From contig CAMOHF010000014.1 of NCBI GenBank assembly GCA_946614685.1, positions 1-11,047 of the forward strand: a DNA stretch of 11,047 nt. Reading direction: 5' to 3'. Position numbers and translations under genes: made by a program. The number at the start of each line of letters is the position of its first letter. The stretch's first letter is position 1. The notes beneath the pieces were generated by a model. That model was not told the origin of the DNA. It made no database searches and was given only the letters and a program-made list of their open reading frames with translations. Below are positions 858 through 8,183 of the stretch, one piece after another. Source of the DNA: an uncultured Clostridia bacterium (GTDB lineage: Bacteria; Bacillota; Clostridia; Lachnospirales; Lachnospiraceae).

Positions 858-889
858 AATATTGACAAAAAATGTGCCGGAGTGAGCCT

Positions 890-2077
890 ATGGAACGTAC
901 AAAAGTGATGGCGGAGTTCTATTCCGAAGAGCCCGTCGAAAACATCATGGCCATGATCAAATACAGACCGGAGAAGATCATCTTTCTGGGTCATAAAGAC
1001 AATATGATCACGAAGAAGATCAAGGATATCATTGACTTTCGGGATATGAAGTGTCCGGATTGCGAGCTGGAGTTCGTTGAAGTCCCGAAGGACGACCTGA
1101 ACGCGGCGATCGACGCTCTAACGAAGATCATCCGCGAGTATCCGGGAATCCGATTTGAGCTGACCGGCGGCAGTGAGCTTATCCTGATCGCTCTCGGCTG
1201 TATCGCTGCGCGTATGGAGATCAGCAAGCTTCGTATCGATCCGTTCACCGGCAAGGAGATCGACATCATCGGCTCCGAGGCGAAGATGACGGATTATCAT
1301 TTCAACATCGGCATCGCCGAGGATATCGTGCTTCACGGCGGTATCTTAACGCCCCAGACAGGAAGTTATGCAGAATGGAAATTCACGGACGCATTTCGCG
1401 GAGACATCCGCGTGCTCTGGGATATCTGCTGTAAGTATAAAAGCAACTGGAACCGCTATTGTTCCGTGATCGACGAGCTCGCGAAGAACACCCCCAATTG
1501 CAACGAGGGCTGGTGCGAGCTTTACAGGAATCAGCTCGGAGAAGCGGCGAAGCTCCTCCGCGACCTGGATGAAGCGGGGATGATGAAGGACTACTATGAG
1601 TCCGGCAAGAAAATTTGCTTCAGATACAAGGACAATATGATCCGAAAGGTGATCGCCAAAGCGGGGAATATCTTAGAACTGCACGTCTATGAGGTGGCTA
1701 CGAGAGACTGCTACGTGTTCACGGACGCCATCATCGGAGCCCATATCGACTGGGACGGCGAGATCCACGACTTAAGCAACCCGGGCTACGACACCATGAA
1801 CGAGATCGACGTGATCCTGATGAAGAACGTCTGTCCGATCTTCATCTCCTGCAAGAGCGGCAAGACAGGGGGCAACGCCCTGCATGAACTTGAAACCGTA
1901 TCGAGAAAGATCGGCGGAAAGTATGCGAGAAAAGCGCTTGTGATGGCGAAAAGCTGTGACGACAATATGGGCGGACAGTTTTTCAGACAGCGCGCAAGAG
2001 ACATGCATATCTGGATCATCGACGATGTCTTCCGCATGTCGGACGAGCAGCTCTTCAACAGGCTGAAGAGAATCTAG
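890..2077 (+). CDS. Card1/Can2-like CARF-domain nuclease (DUF1887 family)
   Basis: Predicted two-domain effector: an N-terminal CARF domain that in relatives binds cyclic oligoadenylate, and a C-terminal PD-(D/E)XK domain that in Card1/Can2 cuts nucleic acid. With the ATG at 890 it has 395 residues. The CARF part shows EFYSEEPVENIM near the N-terminus and the ligand-loop signature ELTGGSE at about 90-96. The nuclease part shows an early acid in GNILEL (E263), NEIDVIL with D307, then FISCKSG with K322; Ser occupies the usual Glu position of ExK. The helix after it (HELETVSRKIGGKYA) matches the family pattern. I prefer ATG 890 over the in-frame ATG at 872 because GGAG sits seven bases upstream and family proteins start close to the EFYSEEP segment. 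No cas genes or repeats are visible. The family call is strong; the ligand is unknown. Confidence 0.87.
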   Translation: MERTKVMAEFYSEEPVENIMAMIKYRPEKIIFLGHKDNMITKKIKDIIDFRDMKCPDCELEFVEVPKDDLNAAIDALTKIIREYPGIRFELTGGSELILIALGCIAARMEISKLRIDPFTGKEIDIIGSEAKMTDYHFNIGIAEDIVLHGGILTPQTGSYAEWKFTDAFRGDIRVLWDICCKYKSNWNRYCSVIDELAKNTPNCNEGWCELYRNQLGEAAKLLRDLDEAGMMKDYYESGKKICFRYKDNMIRKVIAKAGNILELHVYEVATRDCYVFTDAIIGAHIDWDGEIHDLSNPGYDTMNEIDVILMKNVCPIFISCKSGKTGGNALHELETVSRKIGGKYARKALVMAKSCDDNMGGQFFRQRARDMHIWIIDDVFRMSDEQLFNRLKRI

Positions 2078-5419: not shown

Positions 5420-6490
5420 ATGTTCAAATTTATTCATATCGCGGATGTGCATCTTGGGATGCATCCCGACAAAGACAAGGTATGGAGTGACGACCGCGCG
5501 GCGGAGATCGAGGCTACATTTGATACGGTTCTCGAACATTGCGCAACGCACGAGGTGAATCTGCTTCTGATCGCCGGTGATCTTTTCGATGCGCCTCCGA
5601 CGGAGACGGAGCTTCGAAAGTTGGACGCCAGACTGAAGAAGGCCACCGGTACGAAGGTGGTCATCGTGACGGGCAGCAGCGATGCGGCGCCGGCCGACAG
5701 CATTTTCTTTAAGTACGGTTTCGAGTCGGATGTCACCGTGCTTCCGCCCGACGTGATCTCGCAGGCTTACTTCGAGGAATTGGGCGTTGCCGTCACAGGT
5801 ATTTCCTATGGCAGGGAGCACTACGACGAGCCGATGCTCGAGCATATAACGCCGGCGAAGGAGGGTGCCTTCAACATCCTGCTCGGCTACGGCGGTGAGA
5901 AGGGTTATATGCCTTTTTCAAAAGATCGTCTTTTGGAGAAGGGTTTTGATTATATCGCACTCGGCAGAAGACACAAGCCGACGGTGGTTGCGGAGCATAA
6001 GATGGCATTTGCCGGAAGCCTTGAGCCCCTTTCCTACAAGGAGACGGGGGAGCACGGCTACTTTTTCGGCAAGTCGGATCCCGAGGAGGGAACCGAGGTA
6101 TCCTTTGTGCCCGTAAGCTTACGCAGGTACGTGAACCTGACGGTAGAGGTCCTTCCGGATATGAACAACGCCGCGATCACAGCGAAGGTGGAGGAGGCGA
6201 TCCGCGAAAGCGGCAGTCAGAACATCTTCCGAATCCTGATGAAGGGCTACAAGAACAGTGATGTTACCATCAATCTAAGCGAGATCCTGCGCAGATATCA
6301 GGTGCTCGAGCTTCGCGATAAAACAGGCTACAGCTACGATATTGAGGAGTTGGCCAGAGAGAATACAGGGAATCTTCTGGGTGAGATCGTCACCAGACTG
6401 TCCGATGAGGAGAGTCTGACCCGGGAAGATATCAGAGAGAAGGCAAAGCGTTATGCCGTGCTTGCCCTGATGGATACGGGGGTTTCATAG
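5420..6490 (+). CDS. SbcD/YhaO-like metallophosphoesterase with degenerate active site
   Basis: A 356-residue relative of the SbcD/Mre11/YhaO exonuclease subunit. The fold is clear: FIHIADVHLG (D9, H11), LLIAGDLFD (D54, D57), and FDYIALGRRHKP followed by AGSLEPLSYKETGEHG, which closely follows the YhaO/SbcD pattern ALGHxHKP...GSxxPLSxxExGEHG. Three catalytic motifs are changed. GNHD is GSSD (85-88), removing the Asn ligand and catalytic His. The motif IV His is replaced around NILLGYGG (152-159). GHxH is GRRH (182-185), losing the first His. Expected ligands of metal site 1 (D9, H11, D54, H185) remain. The C-terminal third probably serves as the capping and partner-binding region. AGGA lies eight bases before the ATG. 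The next gene starts one base after the stop, indicating coupled expression. Nuclease activity is doubtful. Confidence 0.87.
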   Translation: MFKFIHIADVHLGMHPDKDKVWSDDRAAEIEATFDTVLEHCATHEVNLLLIAGDLFDAPPTETELRKLDARLKKATGTKVVIVTGSSDAAPADSIFFKYGFESDVTVLPPDVISQAYFEELGVAVTGISYGREHYDEPMLEHITPAKEGAFNILLGYGGEKGYMPFSKDRLLEKGFDYIALGRRHKPTVVAEHKMAFAGSLEPLSYKETGEHGYFFGKSDPEEGTEVSFVPVSLRRYVNLTVEVLPDMNNAAITAKVEEAIRESGSQNIFRILMKGYKNSDVTINLSEILRRYQVLELRDKTGYSYDIEELARENTGNLLGEIVTRLSDEESLTREDIREKAKRYAVLALMDTGVS

Positions 6491-6491
6491 G

Positions 6492-8183
6492 ATGCACCTG
6501 TACAAGCTTCTTCTGAAGGACTTCGGACAATTCCATAACAAAGAGATCGAGCTTGCGCCCGGGATCAACGTCTGCAGCGTGACGACCGATGCGGATGAGG
6601 ATGCGCTGGGTGATTTTGTAGAAGCATCGATCTACGGTATCGACCGCTCCTATGAGGCCGGCGACCGACGGGATCTGCTTGAGCGAAGCCGCCCCGATGA
6701 AGGAGGTTTCTCCGGCAAGGCTTACATCAACCGCGGAAGCGACCGGATCCTGGTGGAGCACAACTTCCAGCCGAAGAGCAGGCAGATGAGCGTGCTGGAT
6801 CTGTCAAGCGGCCGCGAGCTTACCACAGCCGAGCGCTATTCCTTATACAAGACCGTTACAGATCTGGACAAATACACCTACCGCGATGCGCTTCGTATCT
6901 CGGCGGAGCTTCCGAAAGAGGGAGATCCCGCCGCAATCAGGGATTATGTGGTGCACATGGCGACCACGGGTGCGACCAGATTCGACAAGGAAGCCGCCAT
7001 TGCGGCACTCGAAAAGCGTAAGCGCACATTTACCTCGGAAGGCATCGACCGACGGATCTCTTCCCTTGAAGCGGAGATCGCGACCTACGCGGACTGCGAG
7101 GAGCAGCTTACGAAGGTCCGGGAGCAGATCAAGGAGACCGAGGACGAATTTGCCATGGAGACCGCACGCAGAAAGCGTGAGGCCCGCAAGTTGATCGACA
7201 CCAAGAGCGGTGAGGTCAAGTACAAAGACAACAAGGAGCTCAATGAGAACCTGGATGCACTCGCCGAACAGCGCGTCTTCCTCGACCCCGAGCTTCTGAA
7301 TGAATACAAACCACCGAAGAAACTGACGGACAAGATCTGGTTTATCCTGCTCACGGGACTCTTTGTCATCGGCGTGATCACGCTGATGGTGATGCTGCTT
7401 CCCTTTGAGAAGGATGTCCGGGAGATCTTCATCTTCTGTACCATCCTCTTTGTTATCGTGACCATCGTGAACGGTATGTACGAGAAGGGTATCTTCGACG
7501 GAGACGTTTACACGCCGACGGAGGAAGAATTCAAGCAGATCCTGTACGATCTTGAGCGCAAGAACGAGGCCTTCGAGGATGTGGAGATCGACATGTCCTT
7601 CGCGAAGGAATTCCTCGATCGAAAGTCCAAGCTTCGCACCGAGGAGAACGAACTCCTGGTAAAGTATGACCGTATGGTGAAGCTGCAGGAGGAACTTGCG
7701 CAGGCAAGAGACGACAAGAACAACTCCATCGGAGAAGTGACTGCGGTGAATCTTGCGATCAACACCATCCGCGAGCTTTCGGACGCAAGGACTACAGCCA
7801 ACCGCTATCTGATCAACCACAGGATATCGGATATGCTGTCGGATCTGACGTGCGGAAGGTACATCGACGCAAGGATCACGAACGACGAGCGGCTTCTGCT
7901 TCGTACGGCGGCAGGCAGTGCCATCGATATCATGAAGGCCCCTGCGGAGGATCTTCTTCCGGTATATCTGGCGATCAGGCTTACGGTAGCGAAGGAACTT
8001 ATCAAAGACCGAATGCCTGTTGTGATCGACCGCCTTTCGCACCTCGGCGAGACTGAGCTGATGGCGCTTGTCAGGGGCACGGCGAAGATCGATACGGACC
8101 AGATCATATTCATCGCGCGCGACAACCGCGTGAGCGATACATTTGCAAATGAGCACATACCCTATCAGCCGGTAGTGCTTTAG
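6492..8183 (+). CDS. SbcC/YhaN-like membrane-spanning protein lacking ATPase motifs
   Basis: A 563-residue protein with the layout of YhaN/SbcC-type ATPases but without their ATP site. The N-terminus KLLLKDFGQFHNKEIELAPGINV is a typical SbcC/YhaN start. The Walker A segment that should follow (YGPNEAGKST-like) reads SVTTDADEDALG, with neither Gly-Lys nor Ser/Thr in place. Residues about 165-265 and 340-435 are coiled coils flanking two hydrophobic segments (281-303 and 310-328), as in YhaN-type proteins with a central membrane hairpin. The signature region reads KAPAEDLLPVYLAIRL, without LSGG. The Walker B region MPVVIDRLSHLGE keeps D513, but Arg replaces the second acid. It is shorter than SbcC or YhaN, which usually approach 1000 residues. 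It is translationally coupled to the SbcD-like gene and intact, so it looks like a retained pseudo-ATPase rather than a pseudogene. Confidence 0.85.
   Translation: MHLYKLLLKDFGQFHNKEIELAPGINVCSVTTDADEDALGDFVEASIYGIDRSYEAGDRRDLLERSRPDEGGFSGKAYINRGSDRILVEHNFQPKSRQMSVLDLSSGRELTTAERYSLYKTVTDLDKYTYRDALRISAELPKEGDPAAIRDYVVHMATTGATRFDKEAAIAALEKRKRTFTSEGIDRRISSLEAEIATYADCEEQLTKVREQIKETEDEFAMETARRKREARKLIDTKSGEVKYKDNKELNENLDALAEQRVFLDPELLNEYKPPKKLTDKIWFILLTGLFVIGVITLMVMLLPFEKDVREIFIFCTILFVIVTIVNGMYEKGIFDGDVYTPTEEEFKQILYDLERKNEAFEDVEIDMSFAKEFLDRKSKLRTEENELLVKYDRMVKLQEELAQARDDKNNSIGEVTAVNLAINTIRELSDARTTANRYLINHRISDMLSDLTCGRYIDARITNDERLLLRTAAGSAIDIMKAPAEDLLPVYLAIRLTVAKELIKDRMPVVIDRLSHLGETELMALVRGTAKIDTDQIIFIARDNRVSDTFANEHIPYQPVVL

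Follow-up and report, generated by a model that had tools for sequence, protein, structure and literature searches.

The window analysed here, an 11,047-nucleotide stretch of DNA from an uncultured Clostridia bacterium of the family Lachnospiraceae, carries two adjoining open genes on its forward strand (+), the second of which starts one base past the stop codon of the first. The first gene (5420..6490) encodes a 356-residue protein with the SbcD/Mre11 fold and a broken active site, which we call A. The second gene (6492..8183) encodes a short Rad50/YhaN-like protein of 563 residues, which we call B. The original prediction described the two as an SbcCD/Mre11-Rad50-like pair, and the open reading frames and predicted folds bear this out. 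An AlphaFold2 model of A, with a predicted local distance difference test score (pLDDT) of 93, matches Mre11/SbcD chains in Foldseek searches (3tho_B, E 4.3e-15; also 1ii7 and 7dog), and a sequence profile of A retrieves Mre11 chains of the PDB. The Pfam Metallophos family matches A with 36.6 bits against a cut-off of 21.5, and TIGR00619, the NCBIfam model for SbcD, scores it at 46.6 bits, under its cut-off of 77.65. The predicted structure of B (pLDDT 79.9, with low values for the loops of the tip) matches SMC/Rad50 heads (5xei, E 2.7e-12; 3auy; 3qku), and a sequence profile of B retrieves Rad50 chains of the PDB. Its predicted layout is a Rad50/SMC head, a short coiled coil and a hydrophobic hairpin at the tip. 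Relatives were taken from the best 120 of 734 matches for A and the best 120 of 295 matches for B. Most of the B relatives so listed carry PF13514 and PF13476, whereas B of the window is over the cut-off of no Pfam family; PF13514 matches intact and some degenerate relatives.

Alignment with intact relatives reveals that A retains motif I (D9-V-H11, 5444..5452), D54 of motif II (G53-D54, 5576..5581) and H185, the last His of motif V. However, motif III reads GSSD in place of GNHD (5672..5683), with Ser-Ser for Asn-His; motif IV reads YGG in place of HGG (5888..5896); and motif V reads GRRH in place of GHxH (5963..5974), with Arg for the first His. Thus, the eight ligand or catalytic positions, DHDNHHHH in intact relatives, read DHDSSYRH in A, and the two-metal site is incomplete. 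If the ligands of metal 1 in Mre11 are D8, H10, D49 and H208 and those of metal 2 are D49, N84, H173 and H206, as we take them to be, then all four metal-1 ligands would be present in A and the three metal-2-only ligands would be gone together with the catalytic His. The accessible text of one paper implicates His173, His206 and His208 of P. furiosus Mre11 in nuclease activity (PMC3175470), and that of another describes H85 of this Mre11 as a conserved His that is essential for nuclease activity (PMC4996933). The His-to-Ser change of A corresponds to Mre11 H85S, and PDB 3dsd, as far as its accessible description goes, is the H85S protein with branched DNA and manganese.

Likewise, B has lost its ATP motifs relative to its aligned relatives. 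The P-loop at the Walker A position is replaced by VTTDADED (6579..6602), the signature LSAG by APAE (7938..7949), and IIDDIF of Walker B by VIDRLS, in which D513-R514 (8028..8033) stands for DD and the second Walker-B acid is gone. The losses in both proteins are those named in the original prediction. Residues 282-332 of B (7335..7487) form the hydrophobic, predicted transmembrane hairpin at the tip of the coiled coil, as judged from hydropathy, predicted fold and conservation, and the hydrophobic stretches themselves span residues 285-303 and 312-330. Ahead of the hairpin lies a conserved basic stretch (residues 216-236, 7137..7199). By hydropathy, two or more hydrophobic stretches occur in the window B and in all other full-length B proteins of the genus; only one such stretch was found in one of four outgroup B proteins (G007). 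Searches of the PDB, Pfam and the literature gave no functional lead on the tip of B.

The pair is nearly universal in the genus, for which we sampled 37 genomes including the window's own. B is present in 35 of these and in all 18 with completeness of 90% or more and contamination of 5% or less; the two genomes that lack it are 79% and 71% complete. The spread of A across the genus equals that of B, and the sole A match in G305 is another kind of SbcD. None of the listed genus copies of A or B contains an internal stop. A second genome of the genus, the metagenome-assembled genome RUG12564 (G180, locus L062), carries identical lesions in proteins that are 99% (A) and 94% (B) identical to those of the window, indicating that the lesions are not chance events. 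We rejected an assembly or frameshift artefact on the same grounds and because no listed genus copy has an internal stop.

Both proteins could be read and scored in 43 genomes (33 of the genus, six of other genera of the family and four outgroups). A and B are both intact, in all eight residues and all three motifs, in 17 of them, and both are broken in the other 26. No one-sided case was observed: B is broken in 26 of 26 genomes with a broken A and in 0 of 17 with an intact A. This table excludes G310 and G328, in which B is split over contigs; by eye, the second piece of B in G310 also lacks the signature and the Walker-B pair. Of the A proteins in the 26 degenerate genomes, all 26 lack the GNHD Asn, 24 the catalytic His, 19 the first GHxH His, nine D54, eight the motif-IV His, six H185 and four H11, and D9 is lost in none. 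Of the B proteins, 25 lack the signature, 17 the Walker-B pair and 13 Walker A, the last scored with the pattern GK[ST]; the P-loops of a second pair, described below, lack a first Gly. The commonest lesions are therefore those of the GNHD Asn in A and of the ATP signature in B, and Walker A is the motif most often retained. In the similarity-ranked lists of relatives, which are biased towards the window, one or more lesions occur in 25 of the 118 A proteins that could be scored and in 69 of the 120 B proteins. Intact and dead pairs are not distinguished by the net charge of A and B, as compared in 15 genomes.

Several further observations concern the degenerate proteins. G324, G332 and G304 (L065, L066 and L067) make up another degenerate lineage, in which A carries H11N and D54N and B keeps Walker A and has lost the signature. 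Protein cluster P0155, with 2078 member sequences, has B motifs of the same kind as this lineage. In G317, a second partial B-like piece (G317:C69:2-832) lies beside the full B and represents a further copy or contamination.

To compare rates of change, we calculated the ratio of nonsynonymous to synonymous substitution rates (dN/dS). In 12 pairs of degenerate genomes dN/dS is 0.007-0.065 for A and 0.031-0.105 for B, dS exceeding 1.5 and making the values less reliable in two A and four B pairs. The marker genes rpoB, gyrA and valS give 0.010-0.053 in six or seven of those 12 pairs, to which A is similar. Between the window and G180, 3 codons of A differ in the amino acid and 58 differ synonymously (dN/dS 0.013), the corresponding counts for B being 34 and 82 (dN/dS 0.105). 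A dN/dS of 1 was rejected in the seven degenerate pairs tested, with twice the difference in log likelihood at 150-312 for A and 132-353 for B. The low values in five usable intact pairs (A 0.024-0.042, B 0.011-0.043) are unreliable because A has a dS of 1.5-3.2 and B one of 2.8-7.4, and the saturated G330-G308 comparison was dropped. The sequences show that the pair is retained under purifying selection after catalytic loss and is not decaying, in agreement with the joint loss with retention that had been predicted. Lost catalytic residues together with continuing purifying selection are what characterizes a pseudoenzyme, and as far as sequence can tell the pair is one. Slow decay towards a pseudogene, with frames open by chance, is highly improbable, since the faster change of the B C-lobe described below is outweighed by near-universal presence in the genus, open frames in all listed copies and dN/dS values that lie far under 1 and refute it in substance.

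We compared the regions of the proteins in nine degenerate and six intact genomes of the genus, taking residues 216-367 of B as the tip. The C-lobe of B goes from the best- to the worst-conserved region, with mean identity of 0.28 in degenerate and 0.91 in intact genomes, and the N-lobe falls to 0.40 from 0.78. The tip hardly changes (0.59 and 0.62). The markers suggest that the degenerate set is somewhat more diverged (degenerate/intact identity 0.88/0.89 for rpoB, 0.87/0.92 for gyrA and 0.84/0.92 for valS). For comparison, seven intact genomes of several genera, with marker identity of 0.83-0.85, show 0.68 for the C-lobe, 0.36 for the tip and 0.55 for A. Measured against these genomes, A has not become looser and the tip of B has kept its constraint, but the ATPase lobes of B have lost constraint. 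The dN/dS of the C-lobe is 0.07-0.21 in degenerate pairs and 0-0.005 in intact pairs, the latter saturated; it exceeds that of the tip in seven of seven degenerate pairs and falls below it in three of three intact pairs. Among the degenerate B proteins, conservation over 15 residues is highest in AMETARRKREARKLI, which lies ahead of the hairpin. Relaxed selection, which the original prediction had raised as a point against a retained role, is thus found in the ATPase lobes of B, but selection on the pair as a whole in degenerate genomes is purifying. The commonest lesions appear to hit cutting and ATP-driven head closure together, and selection appears to hold best the fold of A and the tip of B.

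One genome pair stands apart. Between G306 and G323 (L085 and L086) dS is 1.1-1.6 for A and B as compared to 0.09 for gyrA and 0.19 for valS, and B has 54 amino-acid changes in the tip and 2 in the C-lobe. Both contrasts make recombination likely at this locus.

In a tree of RpoB, GyrA and ValS from 30 genomes, made with a quick method, the seven intact genomes of the genus form one clade, with support of 100 in the Shimodaira-Hasegawa-like approximate likelihood ratio test, and the degenerate ones fall into four clades on an unresolved backbone. Outside the genus, G070 is intact and G040 and G160 are degenerate. A tree of A and B joins all degenerate sequences of the genus, although long branches may attract each other there. 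In the approximately unbiased test neither a single degenerate clade of the genus (p 0.138) nor a single G040 and G160 clade (p 0.068) was rejected. Parsimony counts three changes on the marker tree and two on the A and B tree, and at least two degenerations, one inside the genus and one outside, are needed. Close homologs with intact motifs, which the original prediction had named as a refutation, do exist (G311, G330, G327 and others), but they form a separate clade of the genus and so date the loss and do not refute retention. Upstream of the pair, a C39 peptidase or a FapA-family gene each occurs in some intact and some degenerate genomes, as do the converging Prs, DnaC-like and DnaD-like genes downstream; beyond these lies a gene that, from a reading of the start of its sequence, we take to encode MurC. 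Since intact and degenerate genomes have overlapping gene orders, we rejected a paralog at another locus, and change in place at the same locus is likelier, although contexts vary between clades.

The closest known system is SbcEF (YhaN-YhaO) of B. subtilis, in which an SbcD-like gene likewise adjoins an SMC/Rad50-like gene; intact B relatives match PF13514, the YhaN-type AAA_27 head, and PF13476. In this comparison, for which the Bacillus proteins were taken by description only, B of the window is much shorter (563 residues, YhaN having about 960) and motifs are lost in both subunits. SbcE is reportedly the subject of a 2010 paper by Krishnamurthy. In the accessible portions of other papers, YhaN is identified as SbcE, an SMC-like protein involved in double-strand-break repair (PMC4205851), SbcEF appears beside SbcCD among factors dispensable in the assay used (PMC12748557), and the lexA/SOS genes listed for B. 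pumilus include yhaO and yhaN (PMC3896406). SbcCD and Mre11-Rad50 resemble the pair in the predicted folds of A and B and in profile matches to their PDB chains. Those complexes differ from the window pair, which lacks a complete two-metal site, Walker A, the signature and the second Walker-B acid. SbcC and Rad50 carry a zinc hook at the tip, where B of the window has the hydrophobic hairpin. A further comparison is with the calcineurin-fold subunits of DNA polymerases, of which the eukaryotic B-subunits are catalytically inactive. In the polymerases only the phosphoesterase fold is concerned, whereas in the window pair the partner ATPase has lost its motifs as well. According to the accessible text of PMC4996933, archaeal DP1 and the eukaryotic B-subunits are polymerase subunits built on an Mre11-like, calcineurin-type phosphoesterase fold. 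We met no description of concerted loss of the Mre11-Rad50 (MR) type in the open-access literature, outside which most subscription papers lie, as judged from search listings and the openings of abstracts, and the accessible part of a pseudoenzyme review (PMC10211241) contains no word starting with nuclease or ATPase.

With the residues for cutting and for ATP missing from both halves, the pair is probably a holder or sensor and not a cutter. Our best explanation, which we consider moderately likely, is that A and B form a membrane-anchored pseudoenzyme complex of the SbcEF branch that serves as a scaffold or sensor without an ATP cycle. The predicted hairpin of B would be inserted in the membrane, and the B heads would hold A on the cytoplasmic side. 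Having no more than one complete metal site, A would bind without cutting, its ligand being DNA ends, structured DNA or a partner protein. The complex would then serve constitutively, at the membrane, as a tether, scaffold or sensor. Membrane insertion, complex formation, ligand binding by A and the role itself are the steps that we infer.

A number of observations weigh against this explanation. Membrane insertion, DNA binding and the A-B complex are all predicted rather than directly seen. Within the genus, mean identity of A is 0.53 in degenerate and 0.71 in intact genomes, and it is the C-terminal helices of A, taken as the Rad50-binding part, that dropped most (ratio 0.61, nuclease domain 0.76). 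The tip of B is also looser by dN/dS (0.013-0.130 in degenerate and 0.007-0.010 in intact pairs, with dS saturated), and in G333-G331 the values for tip (0.130) and C-lobe (0.155) are close. ATP binding may survive in the 13 of 26 degenerate B proteins that keep Walker A. Finally, a second, motif-intact SbcEF-like pair leaves room for a subordinate role.

This second pair, 366 and 842 residues long in G180 (L104, contig C1), likewise consists of an SbcD-like protein and a hairpin-bearing Rad50-like protein, but its B is longer, its motifs are present and its locus lies elsewhere (L104:5466-9052; L105:553-3081 in the window's own genome). At E 1e-15, 20 of 27 degenerate genomes contain it, as against 0 of 14 intact ones. 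The four A and five B proteins that were read carry the motifs, LSxG taking the form MSKG in one; four of five B proteins have the hairpin, and that of G320 has only one hydrophobic stretch. It is unlikely, if the best placed of the alternatives, that the dead pair acts as a non-catalytic partner or inhibitor of this second pair, for example through mixed head dimers. The distribution and the shared hairpin speak for such a role. However, seven degenerate genomes show no second pair, including G299, G313, G309, G326 and G160, which are 95-100% complete; A of G313-G299 still has a dN/dS of 0.007; and the association comprises only three independent contrasts on the tree (sign test p 0.5).

The same distribution fits replacement, in which the second pair or SbcCD took over cutting and the dead pair keeps an ancestral non-catalytic role. 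Intact orthologs share the hairpin, and its conservation is nearly equal in intact and degenerate genomes of the genus. SbcD is over the NCBIfam cut-off in 16 of 41 genomes, nine intact and seven degenerate. In G309, G313 and G326, searches for A, the second pair and the SbcD model found no other SbcD-like gene; unless something escaped these searches, serving another MR complex is not required of every dead pair. The SbcC search, which covered 18 of the 41 genomes with at most 25 candidates scored in each, missed even the second-pair B of G180, and we place little weight on absences from it. Replacement is rather improbable, and it differs from our best explanation chiefly in whether the role is new. 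Of the retained new role that had been predicted, it is the retention that stands; its newness, as opposed to survival of an older non-catalytic role, does not follow.

Continued enzymatic activity of the pair, with A using one-metal or other chemistry, is similarly improbable. The window lineage retains the four metal-1 residues, as we assign them, and 17 of the 26 degenerate genomes do so, whereas the three metal-2-only residues are all kept in none. In G325, the only lesion of A is N to D, and activity may persist there. On the other hand, the further ligands lost, some of them metal-1 ligands, differ by clade (H11N and D54N in the G304 group, D54N and H185R in the G313 group), which fits a lost demand better than one new catalytic design, and B of the window lineage has lost all three ATP motifs.

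The membrane scaffold or sensor reading has a parallel in a third protein, a headless fusion of 537-607 residues, read in 19 genomes of the genus (seven in which the pair is intact and 12 in which it is degenerate; L072:4953-6737, L073:5384-7192, L074:5923-7707 and L285-L300). The fusion consists of an SbcD-like domain, a coiled coil, a hydrophobic hairpin and a second coiled coil, without an ATPase head. Its GNHD is changed in 19 of 19, to GEAD in 13, and the copy in G317 has a hit to the P-loop pattern. The tail weakly resembles the tip of B (hhalign probability 92.9%), a score biased by coiled coil and hydrophobic helices. By analogy, the fusion suggests that an altered nuclease fold tied to a hydrophobic hairpin may be useful on its own.

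Elsewhere in the window, near the pair, a protein encoded at 872-2077 (+) is recognized by PADLOC models as a CARF-PDDEXK protein, a Can2/Card1-like nuclease of the CRISPR-signalling type, and Pfam Card1_endonuc scores it slightly under the cut-off. A and B themselves match 0 PADLOC models at E 0.1, and we rejected a defence system on this basis. An open reading frame of at least 248 residues on the reverse strand (2-745, -) is cut by the window edge, and its C-terminal part is an acidic VSEVSEA-like repeat.

Tentatively, and with less confidence than we place in our explanation of the pair itself, we propose a family of membrane-anchored, ATP-independent pseudo-Mre11-Rad50 complexes, in which two or more lineages lost catalysis in concert and which is paralleled by a headless fusion that carries only an altered nuclease fold and a hairpin. 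The function of Mre11-Rad50 is usually explained as ATP-gated nuclease action. If this proposal is correct, part of the MR superfamily would be purely a membrane tether or sensor of a DNA or protein ligand, with neither cutting nor an ATP cycle. Near-universal retention after loss represents a natural separation of function, in which the remaining need seems to be neither cutting nor the ATP cycle. As intact and dead orthologs occur within one genus, this role would be testable by gene swap.

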